This document shows positions 9,284 through 33,091 of a DNA stretch of 64,000 nt, piece by piece. The notes under the pieces were generated by a model. It had not been told where the DNA came from. It made no database searches and worked only from the letters and a program-made list of their open reading frames with translations. This DNA comes from Quatrionicoccus australiensis (GTDB lineage: Bacteria > Pseudomonadota > Gammaproteobacteria > Burkholderiales > Rhodocyclaceae), in contig NZ_CP075188.1 in the NCBI RefSeq assembly GCF_020510525.1, forward strand, positions 2,976,001-3,040,000. The letters are read 5' to 3'. Position 1 is the stretch's first letter, and the number at the start of each line of letters is the position of its first letter. Both the position numbers and the translations under genes were made by a program.

Positions 9284-9308
9284 TTCGTCAGTTCTGTGAG
9301 CTGACGAA
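9284..9308. repeat. Left attachment site of the element
   Basis: The 16-bp direct repeat TTCGTCAGTTCTGTGA is followed here by GCTGACGAA. The left copy is an inverted repeat with 8-bp arms (TTCGTCAG / CTGACGAA) around a 9-base centre, the layout of a tyrosine-recombinase core site. Confidence 0.85.
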
Positions 9309-9641: not shown

Positions 9642-9809
9642 ATGAATACCTCTCAATATGCCCGCGAACTGGGCATCCAACCTGAATCACTTCGCAAGTC
9701 TGTTGCCAAGAATGGCAGCTATTTCGGCGTCGTTCCGACCAAGGCCTTGAATGGTCGCTTGATCTGGCCACCGGCCGAGCTCGATCGCCTGAAAGGCGGT
9801 GTGCGATGA
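9642..9809 (+). CDS. Small putative DNA-binding protein, 55 residues
   Basis: The frame starts at ATG 9642 after GACGGAGAAACAA and encodes 55 residues. The N-terminal YARELGIQPESLRKSVAKNG reads like a helix-turn-helix, followed by a basic segment with NGRLIWPPAELDRL, a pattern seen in excisionase or AlpA-type proteins that set a DNA-binding helix beside a small wing. Its stop overlaps the next start (ATGA), so the two are probably translated together. Its place next to the left attachment site fits a recombination directionality factor, but this is an inference. Confidence 0.6.
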   Translation: MNTSQYARELGIQPESLRKSVAKNGSYFGVVPTKALNGRLIWPPAELDRLKGGVR

Positions 9810-11663: not shown

Positions 11664-12467
11664 TCAGACCAGTTGTTCGATCGCGCGCAAGGCATCCTGG
11701 GCGCCAGCACGTAACGATATGCCACCTTCTGGCACCCGATCATCGCGCGGATTGATTCGTACCAGCTGGCCACCGGCTTTCTCGCTGTAGTTCCGCACGG
11801 TGGCGATGTCCCGCCCGGCGCCAAGCTCGATCACAACAAGGCGCTTCACCGTCTGCCGCCAGACATGCAGCCTGACGCTCTGCTCGTTCGAGCGCGTTCG
11901 CACCCAACTCCAGTCTCCGAACATCAGGATGTTGGGCCGAGCAATTCCGCCGCAGTGCGGGCAAATCGGGAACTCGCTGAGCAGCTCGCAGCTTTCCTCG
12001 TCGACTACAGGGTGAAAAGCATCCCCCGGCCAGATATCCCCACGGCAGCCGTTCAGGCACTGGAGGTGATGAATCGAACCATGAACCTCTGATATCCGAT
12101 CAGGATCAAAACCGGCTTTCTGAAACTGGCCATCGACGTTCGACGTAAAGACACAGGCCCCGTGCTCGACCTTTGCCGCCAGCGTTCGAAGAATCTGGAA
12201 GCCGTCATGCGGTACCGTTTCGCGGTAGAGATTCAGGCGATGGCCGTAGAACCCCCAGGCCCGATGGGGCGAATTCGTAAAGGCGTTTGGGCAGGCGATG
12301 TCCTGGAAGTTAATCCCCGACTCGGCCAGGGCCGGGTAGGCTTTCCAAAAACCTTGATTGCCGCGAAAGTCTGGCAGCCCTGAATCGACTCCCAGGCCGG
12401 CGCCTGCAGTGATGAGAAGGCCATCTGCTCGCTCTATTGCTGCGACAGCTCGATCAATTGCGTACAT
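11664..12467 (-). CDS. Sir2-family NAD-dependent protein (deacylase or NADase)
   Basis: The start at 12467 has AGGAGA 8 bases upstream; the open frame continues further but without a matching signal. The 267-residue protein carries the Sir2 NAD-binding motif GAGLGVDSGLPDFRG (residues 22-36), TSNVDGQFQKAG in place of TQNID, the catalytic HG pair at His129, and a probable zinc site Cys137, Cys141, Cys169, Cys172. Having both His and four Cys fits an active deacylase fold. Sir2 proteins on mobile elements often act as NAD-consuming defence effectors, and the linked membrane-protein gene makes that a possibility here, but the sequence does not decide. Confidence 0.85.
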   Translation of the reverse strand: MYAIDRAVAAIERADGLLITAGAGLGVDSGLPDFRGNQGFWKAYPALAESGINFQDIACPNAFTNSPHRAWGFYGHRLNLYRETVPHDGFQILRTLAAKVEHGACVFTSNVDGQFQKAGFDPDRISEVHGSIHHLQCLNGCRGDIWPGDAFHPVVDEESCELLSEFPICPHCGGIARPNILMFGDWSWVRTRSNEQSVRLHVWRQTVKRLVVIELGAGRDIATVRNYSEKAGGQLVRINPRDDRVPEGGISLRAGAQDALRAIEQLV

Positions 12468-12553
12468 GGTCACGCTCTCCTGTTTAGCTGTTTGCCGAAT
12501 CGGCTGGCCAGCAAGTTGGTGTAAAGCGCCAAGCTCGTAGGTGAGCCACCCCC

Positions 12554-12591
12554 AAAAACAAAACCCGTTCAGCATTGATTGCTAGAACGGG
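12554..12591 (-). terminator. Minus-strand terminator-like hairpin upstream of the Sir2 unit
   Basis: Read on the minus strand, a 7-bp stem (CCCGTTC / GAACGGG) with a 14-base loop is followed by TTTTGTTTTT. It would shield the Sir2 unit from transcription entering from the right. Confidence 0.6.
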
Positions 12592-13192: not shown

Positions 13193-13504
13193 TCAGGCAG
13201 CGACCAAGTGGTCACCACCAGGCGTAGCATGTAATTTAATTTTCAGCGCCTTGATAACCTTCAGGATCGTCGAAAACTCCGGATTGCCGGCTGGCGACAA
13301 TGCTTTGTACAGGCCCTCTCGAGTCAGCCCAGTGTCACGGGCAAGCTGGCTCATGCCTTGCGCTCTGGCGATGTCGTTAAGAGCGGCACGCACCACACTT
13401 CCATCGCCGTTGTCTTCGTCTAGGCAGGCGTCAAGGTAGAGGGCCATGTCTTCACCACTCAGCAACTGATCAACAGGGTCCCAACGGGTAAATTTCTCTG
13501 TCAT
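13193..13504 (-). CDS. Antitoxin of a RelE/HigB-type module (HTH, addiction-module antidote)
   Basis: A 103-residue protein. The start at 13504 overlaps the toxin stop as ATGA; another ATG lies 9 bases upstream. The C-terminal half is an XRE-like helix-turn-helix (MSQLARDTGLTREGLYKALS) of the TIGR02684-type antidote family, and the N-terminal part with EDMALYLDACLDED is typical of the same family. Toxin precedes antitoxin, as in higBA-like pairs. The product should neutralise the toxin and bind the palindrome upstream of the operon. Confidence 0.85.
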   Translation of the reverse strand: MTEKFTRWDPVDQLLSGEDMALYLDACLDEDNGDGSVVRAALNDIARAQGMSQLARDTGLTREGLYKALSPAGNPEFSTILKVIKALKIKLHATPGGDHLVAA

Positions 13505-13800
13505 GGCTTCCACTCCTTGGAAATATCGATGGCACGTTTGATGTCGGCATCCTGAGTATTCTTGTCGCCACCGGCGAGCAAGACCACCAACACCGGACCG
13601 TTCTGGACAAAGTAGAGACGATAACCAGGGCCGTAGTCGATCCTCATTTCGCTAACACCTTCGCGAACAGGCTTCACGTCGCCGAAGTTGCCGGTCTCCG
13701 TCAAGCGACGAAGCCGGGCGTTGATCCGCATAACCGCGGACCGGTCCTTTAGCTTGCCCAGCCACCGGGCGAAGGTCTCGCTCTGGATGATTTCGATCAT
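13501..13800 (-). CDS. RelE/ParE-superfamily toxin (addiction-module killer protein)
   Basis: A 99-residue protein of the TIGR02683-type killer family: MIEIIQSETFARWLGKLKDR at the N-terminus, RINARLRRLTETGNFGDVKP in the middle, then GPGYRLYF and LLAGGDKNTQDADIKRA, the conserved core and C-terminal helix of small RelE-like mRNA interferases. It probably cleaves mRNA at the ribosome. It starts 9 bases from an 18-bp palindrome that is the likely operator and overlaps the antitoxin by 4 bases. The module sits just after the end of the polyvalent-protein gene on the same strand. Confidence 0.87.
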   Translation of the reverse strand: MIEIIQSETFARWLGKLKDRSAVMRINARLRRLTETGNFGDVKPVREGVSEMRIDYGPGYRLYFVQNGPVLVVLLAGGDKNTQDADIKRAIDISKEWKP

Positions 13801-13837: not shown

Positions 13838-16800
13838 TTACTCCACGTTCGAGAACCGCCCTTCCGCCCGCAAATCCTGCCGACGCTTCTGCAAATACAC
13901 CCCGTCCTTGATCATCGCCTGATTCCGCAGCTTCGTCTGCAGGCTGTGCTGTAGCGAGTCTGCCCGGATCGCCAGGCCCGGGTTCGCCAGGTTGAAACGC
14001 ATCGCCATCTGCATCGCTTCGGCCTGCATCGCCTGGTCACCGGCAATCGTTGCGGCCATCCACTGATTGACGATCCCCTCACGCCGGCCGGTCAATTTTG
14101 TCTCGCGCCCCTTGATCGCCGCCCTGCCCTCGTTCATCTCGGCCACTTTCGTCGGATTGAAGCCCAGCGCTGTGCCGAGGATGTCGCCGGTGTCCAGCGC
14201 CACGCCCATATCATCGCCGCGCCAAGACTTCACACCCTCGGTTTCGTAGCGAGTTGCCTTCAGCGGAGCGGCCAGCATCTTCGGGAGCATCGCTTCCAGA
14301 CCGCGGCCCGTCTTGCCCTCGTTGAACGCGCCGACCGCCGTGCCGATGTTGGCAGCGTAACCGGCGACCGGGCCGAGCAGCGTCAACATCCAGGCCTCGA
14401 CAAGATCACGGCCCTCCTGCTCACCCTGCGGACTGCGGACCCAAAGGTCGCCCAGGCCGACACGGGAAGCGAAATCGACATTCAGCAGCGTGCGCAGCGG
14501 TCCGTGGGCAATCGCCTCGCCGCCAGCCTTGCCGAAGACATCGGCCAGCATGTTGCGGAACTCGGTCTGCCAGTCCCATGGATCGTCACCGTCTCCCATT
14601 CCCATGGACAACAGGCCAAGCAGCGGCGTAATGCCGAACACGCCCAACGGCAGGCCAAGCGCGCCGGCCGCGCTGAAGTGCATAGCAGCGACGCCAAGCA
14701 ACATCCGGCGGGCCTCGCGCCGAACCTCCGGCGACTCGCCCTTCAGTGCCTGGTGGGCGTTGCGCCAGAGCAGGTAGGTCATCTGCTGGCTGTACTGCTT
14801 GAACATCGTCACCACGCGGGTGAAGTTGCCGGCCATCCAGCGGCTACGGTTGCTGGCCGAGTAGTCGAAGTGCGTCCGGCGCAACGTCTCCAGGGCTGTC
14901 TCGACTGCCTCATCGTGGGTCTGCCCCTTCTCGACGGCCAGGCGGTAGGCGGCCAGCGCCGACACCTGCCTGTTGAACACCTCCGGCACGGAAAACGTCC
15001 AACCGATGATCTTCATCGCCCGATTGATCGCCCAGGACCGGCTACTCGATGCACTGTCCGTCGTCGCCGTGCTGGCCAGATCGCTGGTCTGCGTGAGGGT
15101 AACGAGACCAGCGTCTTCGAGCTGCTGCAGCGCGCGCTTCTCGTCGCCGGTCAGCGCCTTGTTGTCCTTCAGCACGAAGCCCGACCACTTGTCCCAACGG
15201 CCGCCGAAGTAGTCCTTGCTGGCCTTGGTCAGCGCGCCGGCCGCCTTGTCGAAACCAAACTTGGCGCCAAGCCAGGGGAAGGTGATCAACGGCATCTGAG
15301 ACAAGTTAGTGATCCCAGAGGCCACACTGCCACCGAGCGACATCACAAAGCCGACTTGGCCGAGGGCCGCCGTAACCGGGTGTGTAGTCGGGTTCATCAT
15401 CAGATCGAGTCGCTTGGCCAGTTCGTTGGCGACCTGCTGCTGCACGGTCGTATCGACGTCGCCGGTGGTCTCGCTGATCTGTTTGTTGAGGCTGTCGAGG
15501 AGTAGCGTCAGCTCGTCACCATGCAGCACCCGGGCAACGTGATGGCCGACGTGTTGCATCGAGGCGGCGAACGCCCGCATAGCGTCCTGGCTGTACCCGG
15601 GCGTGCCCTTGCGGTGGGTGAAGTGCCGACGATACGACTGGTCCGGCAGGCTGCTGATCGCCAATTGGTTGAGCGAGTCCATCAGGGCGCCCTTCTCCTT
15701 GGCATCCATCTCCAGGCCATCGACCAGCTTCAGCACGTCGCCGACGAACTCGCCGGCCGGGCCGTCCTTCGTCGCCGAGTAGGCCTTCTTCGCTGTCAGT
15801 TTGGTTGTCCAGCCACTGACTCGCAGTTGGCGAGCGCGCTTCTCACGGGCGGCCGAGCTCTCGAAGGCCTCGACGATCCGCTCGGCGCCCTTGTCGGCAA
15901 TGAGAACGAAGTCGCCGAACCGGGCGAGCGGGAAGTACGGGCCTTCCGCCAGGTACTTGTCGAACTGCAGCCGGATCTCGGCGGCGATACGCTGCCCGTT
16001 GGTACCGGCGCGCTCTGCCCGTTTCGACAAGCCATTGCGCAGTTTGGCCAGCGTGGCGGCGTACTGGTCGCGGACATCACGGTAGAGCTGCTGCGCTTCC
16101 GGACTCAGCGTCTCCCAGTTGGCCAGGAGCTCGGCTTGTTCGGGTGACTCGGCCGCTATGACCAGATCCGGATCAAACTGAGCCAGCGTAGCCTGGTGCA
16201 TCAGATCAGCCAGCTGGTCAGCCTCTGGCCCCTTCAGCTTGCGCCAACGCTCAATGATGGCATCAGCCTGCTCTGCGATGACGTTGCGGGCTTGGTCCAT
16301 CTCCTGGACAACGCGGTCGAACTGCGCCACCTCGGGCATACGCTCACCGTAGATGTCGGCCAGTTGATCGCGAGTCAATGCGCCGAGCGCCCAACTACGC
16401 TGGTTGGCCAGTTGGTGGCCCAGCCAGTCCTTGACGGTCAGCCGATCGGCGTCGTCGACCACATTGAAACGCAGGTCGGGATAGGTCGCGTCAAACGAGC
16501 CAGCATTTTGTGTGGCGGACTTCAATTGCTTGGGGTCGAAGGCGATAAAGATGTCCGCCGGCGTCTCGACATCGGTCATATCGGGCAGGTCGCCCCCGTC
16601 GTCGATGAGGTTGCGCAAAATTGCGCCATCGTTGCCTGCTTTCCGAGCCTGTTTGCCCAAAATATCAGTTTGCGCATCCATGCCTTCACTCGCCAGCGTG
16701 TTGTAGTTCGCGCCACCGAAGTCCTTTTCCAACGGACTACGGATATTGAGGAACAACGGAATCACACCGCGCTGCTTCGTTGCGTTGTTCAGGTCGACAT

Positions 16801-19800
16801 CGGTGTCACGGCCGGCATAAGAGGCCGCGGTTTCCCGGGTCGATGCCGCGAAAATCAGACCGCGCTCGTTCGGTTGGAACTCAGTGAAGGTGCCGCCATC
16901 TCGCGTGCCGTGGAAGACCACCAGCGGCTCACCGTTTTCATCAATTACCTTTGACGTTGCACCCTTGAAGGTCAGCGCCTGGTGCAGTATATTGTGAACG
17001 TCTCCTGAAGGAACTGCCCCCGGAGTGCTCTGCCGGTCACTGACCGGAGCGCCGGATTGCTTAGGCTTCAGGAGATTGTCTTTTGTGGAAACGCTGTGCA
17101 GGTAAAAGCGTTGCGTGTTCGGATCCCGATGGACCAACACGGTAACCACGTCATCCACATCATTGATTCGCACTGGCGCCGAGATGTAGATGCTATCCAT
17201 CAAGCCGCGCGTTGCCACATGCACAATCCGGCCATTTTCAATGACGTCAGGCACAGCCTTGAATGCCACAGCTTTGGCAGGGCTGATCCGGTGACCCATA
17301 CTATCGCGCACCGCTCGCTCGTCCATCTGAACCTCGCCAATGACGGGATGGACCGCTTTGAAGCCGTAGTCGCGAAAAATACCAACGGCCCACTCCCGCA
17401 ACGCTGCATAGCCTCGGTGCGGCGCCTCTGATGTCTGAAGATCAGCGAGAGGCGAGCCATTCAAGAAGTCCCTAAGAGCTGCAGTTTCCCAGTCGCCAAA
17501 CCATGCTTTGAATTGGGGAGTCCGAACCTGCTGGTACTGCTCGTCATCCAATTTCGACGGCTTGCCGTTTGGCGCAAGTCGCTCAGAGTTGAACCGACTC
17601 AGGACGTCTGCTGATTTCACTGCTGGCGCCATCAGATCAACACCGAGCTCGAGCGCGCGAGACAGAGCCGACTCACTTTGTGCATCCATGCCGAGAATGC
17701 CCCGGACAATCCGAAGGAACCAATGCCAGGCGCTGGTCAGTCCAGAGCTGCTGCTGTCAGGTGCTGCCATCCGAGACAGAACCTGCTGAAACTTCCGATT
17801 CGTGAACGCCTCGGCCAGGAACTCCTCAGCATTCGTCAGGCCGTAGTGACTGCGTTTGCCCAGTTTGGTCTGCACATGGTGGAACAACGCCTTGAGCTGA
17901 CCGCTGGCCAGGCTCTTCTGGCCGAGCGCATCAAGCGTGGCAGCGTGCACCATCTCGTGCAACAGGTGCCGCTCGGCACTCGCCGGCCTGAACAATGAAG
18001 CAGTGTTGGTCTTCGGGTTGTAGGCCGCGGCGTAGTTGTTGCTGGGACCGGCATGGATAGCCCACCCCTTGGCATCTCCGACCGTTACCTTGGCCGATAC
18101 CCCCTTCGCGATGAGCAGACGGGCCAGTTGGCGATTGAACGGAACTGCGGACGTCTTGACGATAGCCTGCAGGATCTCGTTCGAGGATTTGCCTTCAGCA
18201 GCCAGGCCATAGACCAGTTGGTCGAGACGGCCGATCTGGTCGGACTCTCCTGCCTTGTTGAAGAAATCGTGGCCGTTCGAGGCGTCGAGGCCTTTCTCGG
18301 CCAGTGACTCTGCGGGGGCAGCCCCTTCGTTCTGGTACCGGATCCCATCCAGAACTTTGACGTCGATCGTGCCAAGCGCGCCTTTCACATTGGAAAACTG
18401 CTGGCCGGTCACCTTGCCATCTGGCATAGCCACGAACGCCGCGGCACCACCTGCTTTCGATGCCGCCCTGAACAGACGCATCAGCCTGTCACCACTGCGC
18501 AGCTCACCCATCTCCTGGGGATCGAACGGAACGAAGGCGCTGACCGCATTCTGAGCGGTCAGAAAGACGATACCCGGCTGGTCCTTGGCAATTGTGGAAA
18601 CCAAGCCCTTCGCCGCAGACGGACTCGAGATTGCTGCGCCGGGGTTGGACTCGGTAATTTCCCGCTCAACCATGGGTACCTTGAAGGCTGTCGGCTGATC
18701 GACCGAAACCGTCCCGTTGTCGTACTTGTCGTTCATCCAGGAAATGGTGTCACCAGTACGGGCTAGAGCAGCCAGTCCGTGGTATTCCACGTTCGATCCG
18801 CGCAGAGTGCTCTCAAAGCTCGAGGACAGCATCCTGTCAGCGTTCGATAGGTCGGGCGTTCCGCTCGGGTGGTTGTGGGCCATCCATACATGGGCCGCGC
18901 CTTTGATCCTTGCCAGCTCCATCAGTACCGTTGAGGGATAGACCGAGGCCTGGGTCGGCGCCCCTTTGAACCCACCGATAATGGCAAGCGGCTTACCCGC
19001 CTTGTCGGTAACCAGAACATCGAGGTGCTCCACCGCGAATCGCGACAGGCCAGCGAAAACTTTGGCAGCACCTTCCCAGGAAGCGACCTTCGAGACAGGG
19101 AGGTGCCGCTCGCCTACGGTAACGAGCTGAGTGCTGACGTGATAGATACCGGGAAGGTCGGGGGCTTGGCGGACAGCGAGTACCTTGGTTGCTCGGGACG
19201 AAGCTGCAGAGCGCCCTTGGGCGCCCTTCCCTTTCCGAGGTACAGTTTTTCTGGTGGCTTTGGGTATTTCATTTTCGCCCTCGATTACCGTGTCGCCGGA
19301 AATGGCGTCAGGTTTGACAACACCATCGGCGACCTTGGCGGGTTCAGTCGGCACAGGCTGAGCTGGGATACTGGCCGGCAACTTGGTGTCGCCATTCCGG
19401 ACCCAGTCCTTGAACTGCTCGGCACTCATCTTGGTCACCGTCTGCCGGCGCTTCGGACCAGAGCCATCGGCAAAGTGTACGTCGTAGGCCTTGATGGCGG
19501 CGCCCTTGAGCTTGTAGCCGATCATGGCCTTGTGTTCGTCAAACTTGCCGGTAGCAGGGTCGAACTGGTCCACAACAAACACCGGGCCAGTGTGGTTCTC
19601 CGCGGTCCCGCCCTTCACATAGACGTCGACCTGGTCGCCGTCGGCGCCTTCGGTGCGCTTCACGTAGCCGTAGTGGTCGGACATCGTGACAGACCACGCT
19701 TTACCATCCGGACCAGTACCGCTTCTGGTGCTACCGATAGGGTTTTCGACGGCGATATCCAGCCCGCCGACCTTGATATGGCCCTTGGCGTAATTGCCGG

Positions 19801-21340
19801 CGGCCTTCTGGGCTTCACTCGGCTCAGTGTTGGCTTGATGGGCGGCCTGGTCGATCGACTGAATCGGGCTCTCGCCGGCCAATGCCTTGGCAATCGCCTC
19901 GGGCGGGTGGGCGAAGATTTTTTCCTGGGCGTTCTTGTTGGTGACCAGCCCCTTGGTGCCCAGACGCTTGGCCAGTGCGCGCTGCTCGGCAACCGGCAAG
20001 GCAGCGACCTGTTCGACAAGCGGATCAACCGCTGGCACCGGTGCTTGCAGCGCCTCGGCGGCCTGCTGCTGGCTGGCTGACAACCAGTCGCGCGGAACAA
20101 CGGTGTGCCCGCCCCCGGCTGGATGCTCGACCACCATCAGGTCAGGTCTGCTGGCAGCGATTGTCTGGGCGTGCTCCAGCGGCAAAACATTGGCGCGCTC
20201 GCCCCATGCGGCGAGATTCTCACGCCCGAGGCGGTCGTTTTCATCCTCCTCCGGCACCAAGTCCGCGAACAGATCGGAGGAGGCCTGCGGCGTTACAGGC
20301 ACAGCATCAGCCTCTTCAACAGGTGCCGAAGGAGGCATGCTGGCAGGCTGCTGAGATTGAATGTGCTCAGCCGCGGCAGCGGACAACGGACCGGTGGCAG
20401 GATCGATAGTCGTGGCACCTTGCCCATCTGCGCGGAGAACGCTAACCGGTGCCGGGGCTTGATGTGATAGACCTGCAATCGGACCACCAAACATGCCACC
20501 GCCAAGTGAGCCCATCGCTCCACTGAAAACAGTGTCCTTCACATTTTCCGGAGTCGTCGGATCTTGGAACCCCGCCAGTTGCTCAATCGGATTTTGAACG
20601 AGCTCTTCACCCCCTTCGACCGCGGCACCGTGGAGCATCCCCTTGCCAATGCTTCCGGCCAGGCTTATTGCTGCAAATTTTTCAACCAGTTTGTCGCGGC
20701 CTGTCTTGGTCAGCGCGGACAGCACCCACTCATTGGGACCAAACCTGTTTTCGATGGCCCCAACCGCGCCAGCGCCCAACGCAGCAACCGCTTTGCCGGT
20801 AGTCGAATCAGCCATTTCCGGATTGTCTTGGATCTGCTGTTCTCGAATACCGCCAAAACTCGGCAGGGCGGCAACTACATACGGCCCCGCCCAACTGATG
20901 GCTTGCCCCGCCCCAGCGACCAGAGGGGCAGCTGGACCAGCCAATGGCGCGGCGGCGGTAACCCCTTGGCCAATGAGGCGAGCACCAACCATGCCGGCAT
21001 AAGAGCCGGCCGCATTGCCGGTTGCCTCTTTGAGTGCCGTTCCGGGCATGGCGGCAATGTCATCCAGCGTATGCACCGCCAGCGGATTACTGTCGATAAC
21101 CTCCTGGCCATAGCGTTTGACCGGGTTGTCTTGACCGACACCAGGGACGAAGTCACCGGCAAACTGGCCAGCCCCTTTGACGAGAGCGCCGACTGACTGC
21201 TTGGCGGATGCGACGAAACCTCCATCGCCTTGTGCCGCTTGAAGGATCTTGCTGCCTGACGATGGGACAAGGTCATCGAACACGTCAGCGGATGCGCGTT
21301 GCTGTTGGCCAGCGCCAGCCGGGATCAGGTCTTCGAACAT
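13838..21340 (-). CDS. Giant polyvalent phage-type protein (PLxRFG family), 2500 residues
   Basis: It starts at ATG 21340 right after the stop of the partner gene, with GGAGGTGAAATAA upstream. Segments in order: repeated F-D/E-D-L-I/V-P motifs at the N-terminus; a Gly/Ala-rich hydrophobic region to about residue 300; an inorganic-pyrophosphatase-like polyvalent domain about 515-650 (DHYGYVKRTEGADGDQVDVY); a RadC/JAB-like domain about 725-875 with AHNHPSGTPDLSNADR; HEMVHA near 1128, a zinc-protease-type HExxH; an LPD3-like domain about 1260-1420; an ADP-ribosyltransferase-like domain about 1470-1625 beginning VVFHGTRDGG; PLARFGDF near 1802, the PLxRFG motif; then long helical C-terminal parts. 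Such proteins are known from podophage virions and are thought to be ejected into the cell. Domain functions are family inference. Confidence 0.85.
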   Translation of the reverse strand: MFEDLIPAGAGQQQRASADVFDDLVPSSGSKILQAAQGDGGFVASAKQSVGALVKGAGQFAGDFVPGVGQDNPVKRYGQEVIDSNPLAVHTLDDIAAMPGTALKEATGNAAGSYAGMVGARLIGQGVTAAAPLAGPAAPLVAGAGQAISWAGPYVVAALPSFGGIREQQIQDNPEMADSTTGKAVAALGAGAVGAIENRFGPNEWVLSALTKTGRDKLVEKFAAISLAGSIGKGMLHGAAVEGGEELVQNPIEQLAGFQDPTTPENVKDTVFSGAMGSLGGGMFGGPIAGLSHQAPAPVSVLRADGQGATTIDPATGPLSAAAAEHIQSQQPASMPPSAPVEEADAVPVTPQASSDLFADLVPEEDENDRLGRENLAAWGERANVLPLEHAQTIAASRPDLMVVEHPAGGGHTVVPRDWLSASQQQAAEALQAPVPAVDPLVEQVAALPVAEQRALAKRLGTKGLVTNKNAQEKIFAHPPEAIAKALAGESPIQSIDQAAHQANTEPSEAQKAAGNYAKGHIKVGGLDIAVENPIGSTRSGTGPDGKAWSVTMSDHYGYVKRTEGADGDQVDVYVKGGTAENHTGPVFVVDQFDPATGKFDEHKAMIGYKLKGAAIKAYDVHFADGSGPKRRQTVTKMSAEQFKDWVRNGDTKLPASIPAQPVPTEPAKVADGVVKPDAISGDTVIEGENEIPKATRKTVPRKGKGAQGRSAASSRATKVLAVRQAPDLPGIYHVSTQLVTVGERHLPVSKVASWEGAAKVFAGLSRFAVEHLDVLVTDKAGKPLAIIGGFKGAPTQASVYPSTVLMELARIKGAAHVWMAHNHPSGTPDLSNADRMLSSSFESTLRGSNVEYHGLAALARTGDTISWMNDKYDNGTVSVDQPTAFKVPMVEREITESNPGAAISSPSAAKGLVSTIAKDQPGIVFLTAQNAVSAFVPFDPQEMGELRSGDRLMRLFRAASKAGGAAAFVAMPDGKVTGQQFSNVKGALGTIDVKVLDGIRYQNEGAAPAESLAEKGLDASNGHDFFNKAGESDQIGRLDQLVYGLAAEGKSSNEILQAIVKTSAVPFNRQLARLLIAKGVSAKVTVGDAKGWAIHAGPSNNYAAAYNPKTNTASLFRPASAERHLLHEMVHAATLDALGQKSLASGQLKALFHHVQTKLGKRSHYGLTNAEEFLAEAFTNRKFQQVLSRMAAPDSSSSGLTSAWHWFLRIVRGILGMDAQSESALSRALELGVDLMAPAVKSADVLSRFNSERLAPNGKPSKLDDEQYQQVRTPQFKAWFGDWETAALRDFLNGSPLADLQTSEAPHRGYAALREWAVGIFRDYGFKAVHPVIGEVQMDERAVRDSMGHRISPAKAVAFKAVPDVIENGRIVHVATRGLMDSIYISAPVRINDVDDVVTVLVHRDPNTQRFYLHSVSTKDNLLKPKQSGAPVSDRQSTPGAVPSGDVHNILHQALTFKGATSKVIDENGEPLVVFHGTRDGGTFTEFQPNERGLIFAASTRETAASYAGRDTDVDLNNATKQRGVIPLFLNIRSPLEKDFGGANYNTLASEGMDAQTDILGKQARKAGNDGAILRNLIDDGGDLPDMTDVETPADIFIAFDPKQLKSATQNAGSFDATYPDLRFNVVDDADRLTVKDWLGHQLANQRSWALGALTRDQLADIYGERMPEVAQFDRVVQEMDQARNVIAEQADAIIERWRKLKGPEADQLADLMHQATLAQFDPDLVIAAESPEQAELLANWETLSPEAQQLYRDVRDQYAATLAKLRNGLSKRAERAGTNGQRIAAEIRLQFDKYLAEGPYFPLARFGDFVLIADKGAERIVEAFESSAAREKRARQLRVSGWTTKLTAKKAYSATKDGPAGEFVGDVLKLVDGLEMDAKEKGALMDSLNQLAISSLPDQSYRRHFTHRKGTPGYSQDAMRAFAASMQHVGHHVARVLHGDELTLLLDSLNKQISETTGDVDTTVQQQVANELAKRLDLMMNPTTHPVTAALGQVGFVMSLGGSVASGITNLSQMPLITFPWLGAKFGFDKAAGALTKASKDYFGGRWDKWSGFVLKDNKALTGDEKRALQQLEDAGLVTLTQTSDLASTATTDSASSSRSWAINRAMKIIGWTFSVPEVFNRQVSALAAYRLAVEKGQTHDEAVETALETLRRTHFDYSASNRSRWMAGNFTRVVTMFKQYSQQMTYLLWRNAHQALKGESPEVRREARRMLLGVAAMHFSAAGALGLPLGVFGITPLLGLLSMGMGDGDDPWDWQTEFRNMLADVFGKAGGEAIAHGPLRTLLNVDFASRVGLGDLWVRSPQGEQEGRDLVEAWMLTLLGPVAGYAANIGTAVGAFNEGKTGRGLEAMLPKMLAAPLKATRYETEGVKSWRGDDMGVALDTGDILGTALGFNPTKVAEMNEGRAAIKGRETKLTGRREGIVNQWMAATIAGDQAMQAEAMQMAMRFNLANPGLAIRADSLQHSLQTKLRNQAMIKDGVYLQKRRQDLRAEGRFSNVE

Positions 21341-23218
21341 TTATTTCACCTCCGGCAGGCCTGCAGCGCGCAGACGGGCGTTCACCGCCTTGGGGTCAGC
21401 CCCCCGAGAAATGGCACTCTTTGCCTGTGCTGCGATATCGGCTGGATTTGCCTGGCCTTGTTGCAACATCGGCCGACTCTGGCCGGTGCGCGGGTCGAAC
21501 ACAAAGGGGATTTTCCGGTTACCAAGTAGCGGCTGTTTCGGGTCGATCGGCTCTTCAACATCAATCGCCTGCAGACCCGCCGGCTTCTCTTCGCGCCCGC
21601 TGAGTGCCGCAAACGCTTGCTGCACAGCCTTGCGACGTTCAGGCGTGGTCGCCGGGTCGAGCATCTCGCTCCGCAAGCTGGCCAGTTGTTTGCCTTGCTC
21701 GACCTGTTGCTGACCAAGCTGATTGTGGTTACCCGCGGCCTGTGCCTGTGCATCCCCTGCCCGCGCTGCCTGGAGGATCTGGGCGCCGCGAACTGCTTCA
21801 GCCTTGGTGCTGGGGTCGGTGATCGTCGAGTCAGTCGCATCAGACACCATGCGGCTCGACTGCATGCGCGCGAGCTGGGCGGCCGGGTTGTAGGTGCTGT
21901 TCTTCTGGTCGATCAGTGCGGACGCCGAGTCATCGACAGCCCGCTTGTTCGGATCGGTCAGAGCTTCGGTACCGACGTTCGTCACGTTCAGCTGGCCGTT
22001 CTTGCCGCGCTGGGCGAGGATGCCGTTGCCGCGGTCAAGATAGCCACCCGGCACGATGTCCTTTGTGGTCAGCGGATGCGCCGGCGTGTTGTCGATCGGC
22101 TCGCCAGCGGCCTCCTTAATCGAGTCACCGGGCTGGGCCGGCGCTGCGGCTGGCGGGGCTTGTTTTACCGTGGGGCTTGTCGTCTCGCCAGTTGCATCGA
22201 GTTCGGAGCGGTTCGCAGCGAGGCGAGCTTCTGTGTTCGGTGTGATCTGAAGTACCTTGTTGGCTACGGCACCGTAGCCTTGGGCCAGCATTGCGAGGGG
22301 ACTGGCCGGAGTCGGAGTCGCTTGGTACCGAACACCGTCGATCACTTGCCCGGCGGCCTGCTTGATCGCATCACCAGGCTGTTCAGGAGCCATACCAGTC
22401 GCTGCGGCAGCCTTCCCGCCCTTGATCGTCGGGCCGACCGGCTTGCCGGTGCCGGACTCGAGGAGCGCATCGACCGTCTCGAAGCCCAACGCCTTCGCGA
22501 TACGCAGCAGCAGGTCGTCCTGTGCCTTGGACAGGATTCGCTCGTCCGTCGAGACCGCGATCGGCTCGCCGGTCTCACGGACCTGGGCGGGGATCGTGTC
22601 GGAGGTCGGCGTACCAGGGCCCTTGATCTTGCCGCCGGGAGACTTGTCACCGCCTGCGCGCAGGTGGTGGCGGTGCGCCAGACCGGATCTGCGAATTTGC
22701 TCAGACACACCAGGCTTTCCGGAAACAGCACCGCGAATCATGCTACCCGGCTCGGGCTTACCACCGTCCGCGAAGGCTTGAACAGGCGTGCTGATCGCGG
22801 CCTGGTAGATGCCCTGCTTGCGACGGGATGCTCCTGCCCCTTGGTCGAGAAGATCATCCTGGCGCCAGCGTGCAGACCGCTCCGCATTGAGCTGGTCAGT
22901 CTCACTCAGGATCGGAGTCATGGGCGAGACCCTTTGAGTCGGTCCGGGTGCCGACATGGCGGCCTGGTAGATGCCCTGCTTCCGGCCCGACGCGCCCTGT
23001 GCTTGATCGATCAGGTCGTCCTGGCGCCAGCGCGCGGTCCGCTCTGCGTTAATGCCAGCGGTGTCTGACTGCAGAACACCAGCTTGGCCGGTATTCTCCT
23101 GTGCTTTGGTCCGCGCAGCGTAGTCGGCGAGCATGCCGGCCTCACCGGCAGTCGGTGTGTAGGTGTTCTGGCCGGGGATCGTCCTCGGCGTTTTTGAGTC
23201 AATAAGATCTTCAGGCAT
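21341..23218 (-). CDS. Repeat-bearing phage-type protein, partner of the giant protein, 625 residues
   Basis: It starts at 23218 after GTGAGGTAGCACC and its stop abuts the start of the 2500-residue gene. The product is low in aromatic residues and rich in Ala, Gln, Gly and Asp, so largely disordered or helical. Two copies of a roughly 38-residue unit (NAERTARWRQDDLIDQ, then RKQGIYQAA) lie at about residues 58-95 and 110-150. A second motif, PGDAIKQAAG / PGDSIKEAAG, occurs twice further on. AFADGGKPEPGSMI resembles the FADGG motifs common in phage structural proteins. Coupling to the giant protein suggests the two work in the same particle or process. Confidence 0.6.
   Translation of the reverse strand: MPEDLIDSKTPRTIPGQNTYTPTAGEAGMLADYAARTKAQENTGQAGVLQSDTAGINAERTARWRQDDLIDQAQGASGRKQGIYQAAMSAPGPTQRVSPMTPILSETDQLNAERSARWRQDDLLDQGAGASRRKQGIYQAAISTPVQAFADGGKPEPGSMIRGAVSGKPGVSEQIRRSGLAHRHHLRAGGDKSPGGKIKGPGTPTSDTIPAQVRETGEPIAVSTDERILSKAQDDLLLRIAKALGFETVDALLESGTGKPVGPTIKGGKAAAATGMAPEQPGDAIKQAAGQVIDGVRYQATPTPASPLAMLAQGYGAVANKVLQITPNTEARLAANRSELDATGETTSPTVKQAPPAAAPAQPGDSIKEAAGEPIDNTPAHPLTTKDIVPGGYLDRGNGILAQRGKNGQLNVTNVGTEALTDPNKRAVDDSASALIDQKNSTYNPAAQLARMQSSRMVSDATDSTITDPSTKAEAVRGAQILQAARAGDAQAQAAGNHNQLGQQQVEQGKQLASLRSEMLDPATTPERRKAVQQAFAALSGREEKPAGLQAIDVEEPIDPKQPLLGNRKIPFVFDPRTGQSRPMLQQGQANPADIAAQAKSAISRGADPKAVNARLRAAGLPEVK
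22797..23043 (-). repeat. Two diverged copies of an about 86-bp coding repeat
   Basis: The segments about 22797-22883 and 22959-23043 share a first block GCGGCCTGGTAGATGCCCTG and a later CCTGGCGCCAGCG block, with differences in between. They encode the two RWRQDD...RKQGIYQAA units of the 625-residue protein. Confidence 0.75.
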
Positions 23219-23306
23219 GGTGCTACCTCACAGTACAAAGATTCGCTGCCGTGGTGGAAATGGGCAAGCTGGTGATTTCGTTCATGGTGCTACCTCACAG
23301 TACAAA
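23216..23306 (-). repeat. 24-bp direct repeat carrying a ribosome binding site, 67 bp apart
   Basis: The 24-base segments 23216-23239 and 23283-23306 are identical (both begin CATGGTGCTACCTCACAGTA on the plus strand). Read on the minus strand each contains GTGAGGTAGCACC followed by ATG, so each is a complete translation start. The left copy starts the 625-residue gene; the right copy starts a 20-residue frame. Confidence 0.85.
23223..23285 (-). CDS. Possible 20-residue leader peptide
   Basis: From ATG 23285, behind the duplicated ribosome binding site, a frame encodes MNEITSLPISTTAANLCTVR and stops at TAG inside the second repeat copy, 5 bases before the start of the 625-residue gene. It may be a small coupling peptide or a by-product of the duplication. 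There is no family evidence. Confidence 0.4.
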   Translation of the reverse strand: MNEITSLPISTTAANLCTVR

Positions 23307-23774
23307 AAGTGCTTCATCGATGATTCGTTGCGCATCGGGTGGCAAAAGGTTCTTCTCCGGAACCCATTGCCAGGGGAGATTTGCCCAATAGCGATGTGAT
23401 TTTTCAAGTTCTGACACGGCATATCCGGCATCACGCAAAACCTTGATCTCCGCGGCGCGGATCTCATAGAAATCAGAGTGGAAACCTTGCTTAACTTCAT
23501 GAACCAGCAAGTTGTGAAGGTTCTCGCCCACCTCAGGAGTTCCTCGGTACTCGGCTGGGACAAAAGGCATTGCCGCTTTATTTCTCTTACGTTCGATCTT
23601 GCCCAGCATGTGCGCGATCTTCTCAAGTGGCGGCAGTGCAGCGACACGCGCGGTCTCTTCTACGATCCCCCGGACCAGTTCGCCAAAGTCGACCGCCGGT
23701 CGCTCGGCCTGTGCCGGGGCCGGTGGTGGCATGCGCGACAGCAACTTGTCGAGGCGAACTGACAACGCGCTCAT
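23295..23774 (-). CDS. Hypothetical protein, 159 residues
   Basis: I do not recognise this family. The product starts at ATG 23774, overlapping the upstream stop by 4 bases (ATGA). It begins with a helical segment (MSALSVRLDKLLSRMPPP), then a Pro/Ala stretch, then a longer helical region with PPLEKIAHMLGKIERKRNKA and a C-terminal part containing SHRYWANLPWQWVPEKNLLP. There is no signal peptide or membrane segment. It belongs to the operon that leads to the giant polyvalent protein. Its stop TGA lies inside the right copy of the 24-bp repeat. Confidence 0.6.
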   Translation of the reverse strand: MSALSVRLDKLLSRMPPPAPAQAERPAVDFGELVRGIVEETARVAALPPLEKIAHMLGKIERKRNKAAMPFVPAEYRGTPEVGENLHNLLVHEVKQGFHSDFYEIRAAEIKVLRDAGYAVSELEKSHRYWANLPWQWVPEKNLLPPDAQRIIDEALFVL

Positions 23775-24175
23775 TTCATCCGATCCTCGAGTTCGTCCAT
23801 GCGCTTGGCCAGATCCTCGACCTCTGTCACGCGAGCCAGCCCGCTGAGGACGCCCATCAAGTCGGCGGCGACACTGCTCGGAATCTCGCCAGCCAGGGTG
23901 GCGGCAGTGATCTCCTCAGCACGCTCGACCAAGCTGGTCGCCGTTGCCTGGATCGACTGGGCCTGTGACTCCGGCCGCAGAGGCGGGAGAGCCCGGCTAA
24001 GCAGCAGTGATGCCGCCGAAACATCACCAGCCTTGGCCTGGCGGACCAGCGCCTTAATTATGTCCTCGACATGATCCTCGATAGCGGCACGGTACTTCTG
24101 CGCTTTGGTCGGAATGCCTTTTGGGCGACCGGCCGGGTTGCCAGATTGACCAGGTTGAAAACGAACGGAGGTCAT
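23771..24175 (-). CDS. DUF5681-like small phage-type protein, 134 residues
   Basis: The start at 24175 overlaps the upstream stop by 4 bases. The N-terminus RFQPGQSGNPAGRPKGIPTK is the conserved opening of DUF5681-type proteins, a short basic motif found in many phage and mobile-element genes. The rest is helical, with AGDVSAASLLLSRALPPLRP and an acidic C-terminus EDLAKRMDELEDRMK that could form a coiled coil. DUF5681 proteins sit near packaging or replication genes in phages, but their role is unknown, so a DNA-related function is only an inference. Confidence 0.65.
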   Translation of the reverse strand: MTSVRFQPGQSGNPAGRPKGIPTKAQKYRAAIEDHVEDIIKALVRQAKAGDVSAASLLLSRALPPLRPESQAQSIQATATSLVERAEEITAATLAGEIPSSVAADLMGVLSGLARVTEVEDLAKRMDELEDRMK

Positions 24176-24873
24176 CTGATATCACCCTGATGTAAACAGG
24201 ACTTAGCTTGCTCTAGCCGGAGGTCGTCGAGCGTGCCGCGGTAATTTTCCCGGGCAGAATCGACTGCCTGCGCGGCATACCCACAATCAGCGATCAGGAC
24301 CGCCAACCGCTTCTGGCTTTCAGCGATCTGCTCGCGCAGTGCAACCGCTTGGGCCGCCCGTGACGTGAGCCGCTCCTCTGCCTCGGCGAGTCGCTGTTTC
24401 GCGTCCACGACGTCCTGGTGGTCGAGAAGCTGCTCATCCTCAATAGCCAGGTAGGCAGCACGAACACCAGGCTCCAACTCGACGATATCTTCTTCAGTCA
24501 TGGCGAGCTTGTCCTTGAAAATCGCGTTGGTCATGCGGCCAGGAACAAAGCGCGCGAATCGCTGATCGACCGGGTAGAACGGCGGCTCCAACCAGGCCGG
24601 CAACCTGGCGCGGACTGGCGTATCTGGGGGCAGGCTCACCCTGTATTCGAAGCGGCGCCTGGTCCTTGACCGCCCTGCCCGGAACTCGACGGTCCGCTGC
24701 TCGATCCGCCCCGTCGCTGCCAGACGCTGCGCGAATTTCGCGGCCTGTTTCTCCGGAATTCCACGGCACTGCGCAGCTTCCACAGCAGTGACCCAGAGGC
24801 TTGGCAGTTCTTCCAACAGCGCGACAATCTTGGCGCTGGCTGCTGCAATAGCGATCTCCCGGGCGGATGCCAT
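24172..24873 (-). CDS. Hypothetical protein with coiled-coil C-terminus, 233 residues
   Basis: I do not recognise this family. The product starts at ATG 24873, 5 bases after the stop of the upstream HTH gene. The N-terminal third (LWVTAVEAAQCRGIPEKQAA, then RIEQRTVEFRAGRSRTRRRF) has the feel of a winged-helix fold with a basic strand pair. Residues about 150-215 are strongly helical and charged (DAKQRLAEAEERLTSRAAQA), consistent with a coiled coil. The position as second gene of the long operon and overlap with the DUF5681-like gene suggest a structural or DNA-binding role. Confidence 0.6.
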   Translation of the reverse strand: MASAREIAIAAASAKIVALLEELPSLWVTAVEAAQCRGIPEKQAAKFAQRLAATGRIEQRTVEFRAGRSRTRRRFEYRVSLPPDTPVRARLPAWLEPPFYPVDQRFARFVPGRMTNAIFKDKLAMTEEDIVELEPGVRAAYLAIEDEQLLDHQDVVDAKQRLAEAEERLTSRAAQAVALREQIAESQKRLAVLIADCGYAAQAVDSARENYRGTLDDLRLEQAKSCLHQGDIR

Positions 24874-24878
24874 GAGGG

Positions 24879-25076
24879 CTATCGCTTCCCATCGATGAAC
24901 GCCTCCAGATGATCCCTGCGGATTCGAAGCGAGCTGCCAATACGGCTGACAATGTCAGGAAATCCGTGACTGCCCCGCTTCAACCAACACCGCATCGTGT
25001 TTGGATTCAGCGCACCAGGGAATGCATCGGCGGCCTGCTTGAAGTTCAAGTAGTCGAGACGCGGCTCGGGGGTCAT
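24879..25076 (-). CDS. HTH (excisionase/AlpA-like) protein, first gene of the long operon
   Basis: A 65-residue protein starting at ATG 25076 with GAGGAGTACC upstream. LNFKQAADAFPGALNPNTMR followed by SRIGSSLRIRRDHLEAFIDG has the shape of a MerR/excisionase-type helix-turn-helix with a wing, as in AlpA and many mobile-element regulators. A perfect inverted repeat lies 14 bases upstream of its start, between it and the divergent IHF-like gene, so it may regulate the operon it heads. Confidence 0.65.
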   Translation of the reverse strand: MTPEPRLDYLNFKQAADAFPGALNPNTMRCWLKRGSHGFPDIVSRIGSSLRIRRDHLEAFIDGKR

Positions 25077-25204: not shown

Positions 25205-25486
25205 ATGACCAAGTCCGAACTCACCAGCCTGCTGGCAGCCCGCTTCCCTCAACTTGTCCGACCCGATGCTGACATGGCTGTCGGGGAGATTCTCGGAGCC
25301 ATCAGCAACACGCTACGCACTGGCGGAAGAATCGAAATTCGTGGGTTCGGGGTGTTCTGTTTGAGCTATCGACCACCCCGTACCGGAAGAAATCCGAAGA
25401 CCGGCGAGAAGGTCGATGTGCCTGGCCGGTATGTGCCGCATTTCCGGGCGGGGAAGGAATTGCGGGAAGCTGTGGACGCTGGGTGA
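25205..25486 (+). CDS. HU/IHF-family DNA-bending protein (IHF-beta type)
   Basis: A 93-residue histone-like protein: [17 protein letters not shown] at the N-terminus, [20 protein letters not shown] around the bend-arm region, and [20 protein letters not shown], the DNA-arm signature with the conserved NPKTG. IHF-beta also normally carries the equivalent VLFKPSKELR end; here it is [12 protein letters not shown]. It would bend DNA at attachment sites, the origin or packaging sites of the element. It lies alone on the plus strand, divergent from the long minus-strand operon. Being inside the element suggests a self-supplied host factor. Confidence 0.9.
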
Positions 25487-25644: not shown

Positions 25645-27426
25645 TCAGCCAAGCTCAAGCCCCGCGGAGATGGCGTCGAGCAGGGTTGCGCGTACCGCTC
25701 GCCATTGATCGGCGATCACGTCATAGCCTGCGACTGGCAGGTGTTGATTAGCGCCGAATGACTGAAGAAGATCGAGCGCCCTACCACGCGCCTCGAAGCT
25801 GAACTTGCCAGCCGCTGCCAGATAACGGGCAAAGCTGCCGCTGATGCTCGGATTGACGTCATTCCCGATCCTTGCACTCAGCAAGCCTTCAAGCTTAGCG
25901 TCCCATTGGAGTCTTTCTTCGACCGCCAGATTGGTCACCAGTTGAGCATCGAATTTTGAGCGCCACCGCCGGGTGACCATGGCCTCAAGCAATTTACAAA
26001 AGGTGGCGCTGTCGGCACGGCAGGCCGCCACATGCACGGCCACGGTCCAATCGGCGAACTCGTGACCGAGCATGTCGAAATCGATGGGGAGCTGCAGTTC
26101 CTCTGCGTCAGGCGCAAAGATGGCAAGCGGGATCGCGGTCGTGGTGAATGGGGTTTTCTTAAACTGCGCAACAAGCCGTTGACGCACGCCTGCATCACCA
26201 GAAAAGTGTTCGCGCAGAATAAGCCCGACTTCAGCATTAAACATCGCGCGGCCGTTGTGGTGATCACGGTTGTCGAGCGTGTCGAAGCAACGTGCGAGGA
26301 GGAGTGTGCTGTGGGGACGCTCGGCCGCAAGCGCGCGCAGCGCTTGCGGCGTGCGCGGGATTTCGCCACGTTCGGCGAGCGCGAGGAAAGCCGCTCGGGC
26401 GTTGGGGGAGGCGCTCGGCGCCGCCGAGAGAATCTCGGCGAGCCGGTTGTTGTGGACAAGCGACGTGAAACGCATTGGCAAGCTGTCGCCGAAGGCTGCC
26501 TCAAAATCGGCGAAGCGCTCGCAAATCAGACGCTCGAGTGAGGGGATGCCTTCAGTGAGGCCACTGGTCTCAAGCGCCACCGGTTTGCCGCGGTCTTCGA
26601 GAGTCGCAAGCGCGTCGAGCGCGCCGATTGTCACCAGCCCGGCAAGAGCCGCGGCGCGGACAGATTCATATTCGGTGCCGACCGCGACCGCTTTGGCAAG
26701 GAGCAATTGCCGAGCTGCCTCTTGGGTTTCCGGCGGCAGGGCGCGGTAATGTGCGATGACCATGCGTACGCGGAGTTCGGGATCTGTCTCGAGCATGGCC
26801 TGAACCAACACAGCCTCAAGCGCTGTGCCGGTCGCGCCCGTCGCGGCGATCTCCACGACTTGGGCGCGCAGATCAACAGGCAAGGGCACCGCTGCATCGA
26901 ACAGTGTAGGCGCGAGCTTGGGGTCGTCCGCGTAACCGGCGGCGATTGTCGCGAGCGGCCCATCTGCCTCGCGGATGCGCTTCAGCGCGAGCGTGCGGAC
27001 ATTGGCATGCGCGCCAAACGTGCGAAACAGTATATCGGAGGGGTCGTAGAGGCCGCACAGCTGCTCGGGAAAAGCGAGGATTGCCGCTACGGCTTCGTTG
27101 TCAGCAGCATCACAGTTGCACGCTTCCAATCCAATGGCCAGCAGGTCGCGTCGCACCTCCGCGCGCGCCCCCATCCGAATCAGCCGCTCGCGCGCCACAG
27201 CCTTGTCGGGCACGATCTCGGGAAGCAGGGCGGCTAAATCGTCTAGATCCTCGTCGGGGGCGTCGGCGAGCGCGATCAGTCGGTGGCAGAGACGCTCAAA
27301 ATTCTCCCAGCTCAGAGCATCGAACGGCAGCAGCTGGACGCGCGTGGCGACAGGATGCACGGTGGGCACAGCGTCGGGCGGGCTCAGTACGACAAGCGGG
27401 GCAAGGGTGGACGGCGAAGCGGACAT
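25645..27426 (-). CDS. HEAT-repeat-like protein with an N-terminal LSWENFERLC motif
   Basis: The start at 27426 places the conserved motif near the N-terminus; the frame is open to 27609 but no start has a clear ribosome site, so the start is uncertain. The protein is 593 residues. LLPFDALSWENFERLCHRLI matches the opening of large NTPase proteins with a restriction-endonuclease-like N-terminal domain linked to anti-phage defence. In those, a nuclease and NTPase follow; here the motif runs straight into helical repeats (DDLAALLPEIVPDKAVARER; TLALKRIREADGPLATIAAG) that continue to the end. No Walker A or nuclease core is seen. It may be an internally deleted defence gene or a separate helical scaffold. 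Confidence 0.5.
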   Translation of the reverse strand: MSASPSTLAPLVVLSPPDAVPTVHPVATRVQLLPFDALSWENFERLCHRLIALADAPDEDLDDLAALLPEIVPDKAVARERLIRMGARAEVRRDLLAIGLEACNCDAADNEAVAAILAFPEQLCGLYDPSDILFRTFGAHANVRTLALKRIREADGPLATIAAGYADDPKLAPTLFDAAVPLPVDLRAQVVEIAATGATGTALEAVLVQAMLETDPELRVRMVIAHYRALPPETQEAARQLLLAKAVAVGTEYESVRAAALAGLVTIGALDALATLEDRGKPVALETSGLTEGIPSLERLICERFADFEAAFGDSLPMRFTSLVHNNRLAEILSAAPSASPNARAAFLALAERGEIPRTPQALRALAAERPHSTLLLARCFDTLDNRDHHNGRAMFNAEVGLILREHFSGDAGVRQRLVAQFKKTPFTTTAIPLAIFAPDAEELQLPIDFDMLGHEFADWTVAVHVAACRADSATFCKLLEAMVTRRWRSKFDAQLVTNLAVEERLQWDAKLEGLLSARIGNDVNPSISGSFARYLAAAGKFSFEARGRALDLLQSFGANQHLPVAGYDVIADQWRAVRATLLDAISAGLELG

Positions 27427-27914
27427 CGGCACATTCTGGCATCGCGACGCGGACCCCGCCAGAGTAAATTGCGCCGATGTATGGCTTTGGACTTCGCGAA
27501 CAGTGGCCTGGATGACAGAAATGAGTCGGAAGTTAACGTCCCCAATGGCCGAGCAGTTCACATTCAGGACATACCCCTTCATCGCCGGGTGTAGGCGCGA
27601 GCCAGCCATTCATCAGGACTTCTAACCGAACTTCTAACCAGCCTCTTAACCTCTACAAGACATTGAAAAACAACAACTTTTATATATTTAGTTAGAAGTT
27701 AGAAGATAAATATAAAAGATACGTATAGAGATTAGGTATTGATGTCGATATATGCACACCTCCCATACTCCCCGATATATCTCTCCCTGGGATACCACCG
27801 GTAGGGGGGAAACCTCTAACCTCTAACCAAACTCTGAAGACCATTGTGTCACAACAGTCTTCGAGGTTAGAACCCTTGAAGGCGGACTACTAACCTCCGC
27901 CCCCAAGGCAATGC
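27427..27914. other. Iteron-bearing AT-rich region, probable replication origin of the element
   Basis: This 488-base gap has no supported gene. Three 12-bp-spaced direct repeats (ACTTCTAACC at 27618, ACTTCTAACC at 27630, CCTCTTAACC at 27642) are followed by an AT-rich stretch about 27664-27740, two reversed copies GTTAGAAGTTAGAAG at 27691-27705, two tandem CCTCTAACC copies at 27813-27828, GAGGTTAGAA at 27863 and ACTACTAACC at 27886. Iterons plus an AT-rich core directly downstream of a primase-helicase gene are the layout of a replication origin. Confidence 0.6.
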
Positions 27915-32973: not shown

Positions 32974-33008
32974 GACTTGTTCTCCTAGCAACGGTTTCAG
33001 GGCACTCT

Positions 33009-33091
33009 GGGGGTATAGACCAAGAGGGACTCCCAACTCTTCGACCGGTCATATACCCCCATCGAAAAATCCATACCCCCAACAATACCCC
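33009..33091. promoter_or_regulatory. ATACCCCC arm-type repeats near the right end
   Basis: Copies lie at 33009-33016 (reversed), 33053-33060, 33073-33080 and, with one change at the last base, 33085-33092. The 12-base spacing of the last two equals that of the pair at 9362 and 9374. They sit upstream of the integrase start, so binding could also control its promoter. Confidence 0.65.

Follow-up and report, generated by a model that had tools for sequence, protein, structure and literature searches.

Some phage satellites, among them phage-inducible chromosomal islands (PICIs), carry a small terminase subunit (TerS) but no large one (TerL); known satellites alter the size, packaging or release of helper particles, and they often carry defence genes. 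To our knowledge, none of them has two ejection-type genes, one for a protein with a GPGTxTSDSIPA block and one for a giant polyvalent protein. The core proteins of T7-like ejectosomes are gp14, gp15 and gp16. In podovirus JC1 the DarB-like protein is a proven virion protein, and among the virion peptides gp69 accounted for 51 unique ones and gp68, encoded upstream, for nine (PMC9144972). Here we describe a 23,936-base integrative element within a stretch of 64,000 nucleotides, called the window below, from Quatrionicoccus australiensis (G000:C1:2976001-3040000; the genome is a single contig of 4.17 Mb). The element is probably a PICI-like phage satellite encoding ejection-type proteins, the larger of them laden with enzymatic domains, which would be packaged with its DNA in the particle of a helper podovirus. 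The two proteins concerned are P0001, of 2500 amino acids (aa), and its 625-aa partner P0002.

A bounded element at the 3' end of dnaB

The element spans positions 9284-33219 of the window, is inserted at the 3' end of dnaB, and has an integrase and attachment sites at this fixed host site. Its ends are marked by a 16-base direct repeat, TTCGTCAGTTCTGTGA:

9284..9299, no strand: attachment repeat, left copy, 16 bp, directly downstream of the host gene at 8004-9272
33204..33219, no strand: attachment repeat, right copy, overlying the end of dnaB

Taken alone, the repeat is modest evidence for a boundary, because one of 157 control zones of equal size has a longer run (18) in common with the left region. 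The boundary is settled by the empty site in relatives. A dnaB match was present in 38 of 40 genomes of the genus, and in 21 of the 24 loci retrieved besides the window's own a homologue of the gene at 8004-9272 lies beside the dnaB end, the exceptions being L191, L193 and L196.

The polyvalent protein and its partner

Both genes lie where a preliminary description of this DNA had placed them, each as one open frame, and its list of modules for the larger protein (pyrophosphatase-, JAB/RadC-, HExxH, LPD3- and ART-like, with PLxRFG) agrees with Pfam and motif scans:

13838..21340, minus strand: 2500-aa polyvalent protein P0001, one open frame
19400..19816, minus strand: InPase (inorganic pyrophosphatase-like) domain of P0001, residues 509-647, Pfam E 1.1e-47
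18785..19075, minus strand: RadC-like JAB domain with HxHP...D motif, residues 756-852, Pfam E 2.4e-10
17945..17959, minus strand: HExxH motif, HEMVH, residue 1128, from a motif scan
17102..17401, minus strand: LPD3 domain, residues 1314-1413, Pfam E 3.9e-7
16493..16942, minus strand: ART-PolyVal domain, residues 1467-1616, Pfam E 4e-16
13841..16453, minus strand: conserved C-terminal region of P0001, residues 1630-2500 (LPD39, PLxRFG, DarB-like C terminus), proposed particle or ejection part, from alignment and PHROG
21341..23218, minus strand: 625-aa partner P0002, three conserved blocks, proposed second ejection-type protein, from the open frame and homologue comparison
22379..22636, minus strand: GPGTxTSDSIPA block of P0002, residues 195-280, from homologue comparison

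P0001 thus joins several unrelated enzymatic domains and LPD domains in one chain, as polyvalent proteins do. Five Pfam domains were each above their cut-off, the fifth being LPD39 (residues 1636-1784, E 1.1e-29); the JAB motif reads HNHPSG...D from residue 822, and the PLxRFG motif is PLARFG at residue 1804. As a separate observation, the pyrophosphatase-like stretch of residues 521-655 matches the terminal part of a phage portal protein of known structure (9b41_L, E 1.3e-17), so this domain also travels on portals.

The best-conserved part of P0001 is the C terminus that it has in common with virion-type phage proteins, the enzyme domains being less so: from residue 1701 onward the homologue alignment has an occupancy of 0.99-1.00 and an identity of 0.59-0.84. 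Against PHROG, this C terminus matched phrog_30335 (E 1.1e-217) and the DarB-like phrog_10089 (E 8.8e-178). The DNA methylase and SNF2 helicase of DarB had no Pfam match in P0001; the DarB-like C terminus is nonetheless common to both. Over the C-terminal 869 codons, comparison with the Ferribacterium homologue gave a dN of 0.155 and a dS of 1.06 (NG86), a dN/dS near 0.15, so the open frame is not due to chance and is under purifying selection. The predicted fold of the C-terminal region may link it weakly to a T7 core protein, 'Internal virion protein D' standing at rank 27 against BFVD with E 2.4e-7, below the tool's bar; the sequence profile A3 found no phage chain among solved structures, its best match (E 0.43) being unrelated.

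P0002 had no match in Pfam or PHROG searches. Its clearest repeat is a single duplicated block of 95 nucleotides, 77% identical, at 22794-22888 and 22956-23050. A profile built from its close relatives, which for that reason leans towards them, was run against 390 family genomes. Counting each gene once, it had five matches at E 1.1e-57 or better, all of them in capsid-less elements; the next two, at E 2e-20 and 4e-20, lie in the prophages of genome G584. P0002 and the 870-aa C-terminal part of P0001 look like a particle-associated part. The preliminary description had proposed a satellite that places one effector in a helper particle; a bounded, satellite-like island is indeed present, but more than a single effector would be involved.

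The genes for P0002 and P0001 abut (TAAATG, gap 0) at the end of a run of genes of 65, 233, 134, 159, 625 and 2500 aa:

24879..25076, minus strand: 65-aa protein, conserved in Ferribacterium (55%)
24172..24873, minus strand: 233-aa protein, same place in Ferribacterium (35%)
23771..24175, minus strand: DUF5681 protein of 134 aa, candidate small terminase subunit (weak), PF18932 1e-13, phrog_9747 2.4e-7
23295..23774, minus strand: 159-aa protein, same place in Ferribacterium (43%), not seen in the other elements compared

The 233-, 134- and 159-aa genes overlap by 4 nucleotides each, and 76 nucleotides then precede the partner. A long coupled operon ending in the giant gene, as described earlier, therefore holds from the 65-aa gene onward, but it covers only about 11 kb and not the whole element, the end of the primase gene lying 2.8 kb further upstream of the coupled run, behind a cargo gene. 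The 134-aa DUF5681 protein may be a TerS: phrog_9747 also weakly matches (8.4e-4) the end of the TerS of Dechloromonas denitrificans (G059), and in phiPMW a relative (E 6e-3) lies three genes ahead of TerL. No large terminase, portal, coat or tail family was matched in Pfam or PHROG among the proteins of the element that were tested, that is, all but several open reading frames below 90 aa and those of 252-483 aa that run antisense to the genes for the primase, the partner and the giant protein. The earlier statement that no terminase, portal or coat gene is recognised hence stands for capsid, portal and TerL, but perhaps not for TerS. A complete prophage was considered and rejected in view of the bounded sister elements described below, no TerL, portal, coat or tail genes being recognised between the attachment sites; a capsid-forming PICI was set aside likewise, its own capsid, portal and TerL not being found.

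These features also bear on the alternative of a satellite whose polyvalent protein stays unpackaged, being made in the lysogen for defence or superinfection exclusion, or kept for the host. According to a proposal by Iyer et al. (2017, PMC5512222), hosts take over polyvalent proteins for use against elements that enter the cell, and the element also has a Sir2 gene and other cargo. However, it is the virion-type C terminus and not the enzymes that is most conserved, and the gene does not stand alone among the cargo but follows a coupled run that includes the partner and a TerS candidate, which together make an unpackaged protein unlikely.

Sister elements, intact phages and the remaining genes

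The protein searches, each giving the best 120 of about 8,000 candidates scored, yielded at least 248 relatives of P0002 and at least 452 of P0001. For many pairs of relatives the longest contigs are of equal size (e.g. 16,755; 18,895; 24,106; 27,773), which suggests, short of proof, that both genes are on one contig. The C-terminal region reached E 1e-20 or better in 15 of 395 family genomes, and six of these carriers, the source genome included, are close (59-100% identity).

A similar plan recurs elsewhere in four more elements of 17-20.5 kb that are flanked by direct repeats, and in two further ones (G641, G059) for which the second repeat was not found; the insertion sites are tRNA-Ser, tRNA-Arg, tmRNA, tRNA-Leu or other. 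In Ferribacterium limneticum (G771), a 20.5-kb element between the tRNA-Ser end and its 14-base copy is collinear with ours, its run being primase, HU-like, 65, 288, 83, 159, partner and giant, with the integrase at the far end. The element of Thauera Sel9 (G656), of 18.2 kb between 16-base copies of a tRNA-Arg piece, has an integrase, a 282-aa gene, DnaB, partner, giant gene and TerS. Genome G051 has two elements on one contig (L085 and L088; 17.4 and 18.7 kb) without recognised head genes; each has a partner-like gene, and their giant proteins, which end in a different C-terminal type (LPD38), are 72% alike over 1028 residues. In Pseudothauera (G641) the integrase lies at tmRNA, and the element further carries a helicase-like gene, the partner, the giant gene, TerS and a pair homologous to the toxin-antitoxin genes. 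D. denitrificans, which like F. limneticum belongs to the same genus as the source genome in the grouping used, has an integrase at tRNA-Leu, RepO-like and DnaB genes, the partner, a 684-aa protein and TerS; this 684-aa protein (L115 11584-13638; phrog_5880, unknown) stands where the polyvalent protein would be. TerS without a large subunit is thus present in three relatives (G656, G641, G059). The called genes of 250 aa or more in the four other elements with attachment sites at both ends are integrase, replication, partner-like and polyvalent genes, the 282-aa gene beside dnaB in G656 being the exception; the window element has as further large genes those of the Sir2 protein, the 377-aa protein with an adhesin-like end and the 654-aa protein. 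To the question raised in the preliminary description, whether homologues always lie in complete prophages, the answer is that the closest ones lie in small elements without recognised head genes.

Reduced loci were seen beside tRNA genes as well (L158 and L159 in G736, L164 in G767), where a conserved 178-aa gene precedes the giant gene and genes of 190 and 270 aa follow it; neither partner nor integrase was seen in the three, which may be still smaller elements or remnants.

In a tree of 25 C-terminal regions, rooted at the midpoint and with long branches, a single group with substantial inner branches unites four satellites with two reduced loci (100/100 support), and the four satellites alone are supported at 91/89. 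Insertion sites (dnaB end, tRNA-Ser, tRNA-Arg, tmRNA) and replication genes vary within the satellite group. Intact phages are placed elsewhere, and the closest row outside the group is L119, a viral contig of 39 kb with a giant protein of 3704 aa. The G051 and D. denitrificans elements stand outside the tree because their giant or 684-aa proteins have no match to this C terminus.

Intact prophages that carry distant relatives of both genes occur within the same bacterial family and order, and would fit a decayed prophage, that is, a complete podovirus prophage from which the head and tail genes were deleted while the late polyvalent pair survived. Against such an origin are the five elements bounded by attachment repeats at different sites, with a common plan and no recognised head genes, the single supported C-terminal group of four carriers and two reduced loci, the empty site in relatives, and a P0001 frame open over 2500 codons and under purifying selection. 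A lineage that lacks recognised head genes across this much divergence, and whose giant gene is under purifying selection, is unlikely to be a series of wrecks, and we regard decay as distinctly improbable for the window element.

The intact relatives lie close to head genes. In the G152 prophage, TerS, TerL, portal, major head protein and a structural protein are followed by a 401-aa GPGT-block protein and, 0.46 kb beyond it, a 2174-aa homologue of P0001. The PHROG 156 portal was found in five of 18 genomes searched, lying 10-37 kb from the match to the giant homologue in G152, G584 (two prophages), G623 and G492 and on another contig in G805. A partner-like gene precedes a giant gene both in prophages and in phage contigs. 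The order in viral contigs L111, L112, L113, L114 and L116 is a head-closure gene (Hc3), a 331-342 aa gene, the partner-like gene and the giant gene, although these giant proteins had no match to the P0001 C terminus; in L009 a GPGT gene is directly ahead of a giant gene that does match it. In a phage collection the C-terminal region was found at E 1e-10 in 38 records, 36 of them of 55-66 kb and two of 43-45 kb.

No helper phage was identified when the host was checked for the PHROG 156 portal, PHROG 2 TerL and Terminase_6N. The portal was absent from all eight near genomes (G000, G771, G656, G641, G736, G767, G059, G051), and PHROG 2 TerL had no match in G000, G771 or G051. Elsewhere among the near genomes its matches are on other contigs, or 85 kb off with internal stops (G641), or about 350 kb off and weak (G059). 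The PHROG 2 search does not see every TerL, since it missed the one Terminase_6N match of the host genome, within a prophage at G000:C1:2598642-2599376 (L107, L108). That match, 386 kb from the element, would be the starting point for a split or complementing phage with head genes at another chromosomal locus, both parts being one virus, which is very improbable given that G000, G771 and G051 had neither the portal nor a PHROG 2 TerL, these being the families sought in the relatives.

The rest of the element can be read from its right end, where integrase, an AlpA/excisionase-like gene (weak), the DUF5906 primase, the 654-aa gene and, on the other strand, the HU/IHF-like gene precede the coupled run; left of P0001 follow a toxin-antitoxin-like pair, the Sir2 protein, the 377-aa gene and two smaller genes:

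31750..33036, minus strand: tyrosine integrase, PF00589, PF13356, PF22022
31241..31462, minus strand: AlpA/excisionase-like helix-turn-helix (HTH) protein (weak), phrog_10045 4.8e-4, phrog_66 0.0042
27915..31226, minus strand: primase/DUF5906 replication protein, PF19263 8.7e-17, phrog_16950 5.5e-58, 45% to Ferribacterium
25645..27609, minus strand: 654-aa protein, cargo, no counterpart seen in the Ferribacterium element
25205..25486, plus strand: DNA-binding protein that we take to be of HU/IHF-like type, phrog_379 4.1e-19, homologues in G771 and one G051 element
13501..13800, minus strand: toxin, presumably of HigB type, phrog_3445 toxin 6.5e-34, PF05973 below cut-off
13193..13513, minus strand: antitoxin/repressor, presumably of HigA type, phrog_4268 transcriptional repressor 3.2e-28
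11664..12575, minus strand: Sir2-family protein, cargo, PF02146 2e-19, phrog_2162 3.4e-47
9642..9809, plus strand: 55-aa protein, whose Ferribacterium homologue (53%) adjoins the integrase

The HU/IHF-like gene, on the opposite strand, keeps the same place in the Ferribacterium element (67%), and in G641 and G152 a homologue of the antitoxin is found close to the giant gene. The 377-aa protein resembles a surface adhesin at its end (PF16747, 3.2e-9) and has no PHROG match; the 654-aa protein matched neither Pfam nor PHROG, and neither it nor the Sir2 protein matched a PADLOC model.

Proposed cycle and comparison with known systems

The cycle that we suggest has five steps. The satellite would integrate at the 3' end of dnaB and excise from it again by way of the attachment sites, the empty site being that seen in relatives. 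A helper phage would then trigger its replication through the satellite's own primase. Late in infection, a satellite TerS, present in three relatives and represented by a candidate in the window, may select satellite DNA for the head of the helper podovirus. The C-terminal 870 residues and the partner would place the polyvalent protein in the head, beside or instead of the helper's ejection proteins, as is suggested by the nearness of intact-phage relatives to head genes and by the DarB-like virion protein. At infection the proteins would be ejected, and in the new cell the N-terminal domains, which are variable (ADP-ribosyltransferase-, JAB-, HExxH- and pyrophosphatase-like), would serve the satellite.

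More tentatively, and with some doubt, we raise the possibility of a class of satellites that take the head and tail of a helper podovirus and exchange or supplement its internal ejection complex with two proteins of their own, the giant one delivering satellite-specific enzymes before any gene is read. As the elements are 17-24 kb and most phages with relatives 55-66 kb, a head would have room for two to three copies. If true, the question of whose shell is used would be separated from that of whose entry effectors, with the satellite choosing the proteins shot into the next cell, and it would be explained how a small parasite faces defence before expressing any gene. The elements would also offer a small natural system for polyvalent C-terminal domains, in which to ask if a stretch of 870 residues is enough to bring a cargo into the head of a podovirus.

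No description of a satellite with polyvalent, DarB or ejection genes was found in the literature searched, in which subscription journals are barely covered, and the available text of PMC6893505, PMC12324425 and PMC12839542 describes nothing of the kind. The closest comparisons are partial ones. T7-like ejectosomes and that of PhiM1 (PMC11440229) likewise have a small-medium-large order and a helical C-terminal region, with a weak fold match; there is no sequence match, however, the fold match is below the tool's bar, and the small gene of the window is kept in one relative only. Bcep22-like podoviruses such as JC1 (PMC9144972) have in common with P0001 the large size and the C-terminal 700-870 residues (PHROG 10089), as compared through the PHROG family, and a gene for a mid-size virion protein upstream of the large one. 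The DarB-like protein of the JC1 type is about 4500 aa, whereas P0001 has 2500, has no recognised DNA methylase or helicase domain and has no head genes around it. The polyvalent proteins described by Iyer et al. (2017, PMC5512222) join the same InPase-, RadC-, ART-, LPD3-, LPD39- and HExxH-type modules in one chain, but those of phages are typically near virion genes, and none are recognised around P0001; the word 'satellite' is absent from the main text of that paper. Mulch and Flayer, satellites of Streptomyces phages (PMC10690885), likewise bring particle genes of their own, in their case encapsidation machinery without key replication genes, whereas the window element has a primase and, as particle genes, only ejection-type ones. 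The element resembles PICIs in its integrase, primase, lack of a recognised capsid set, size of 17-24 kb, cargo and toxin-antitoxin genes, perhaps in an HTH/AlpA-like gene (a weak match here), and, through three relatives, in TerS alone. It differs from them in that no capsid-size or interference gene was recognised in it and, above all, in its giant polyvalent protein and virion-type partner.

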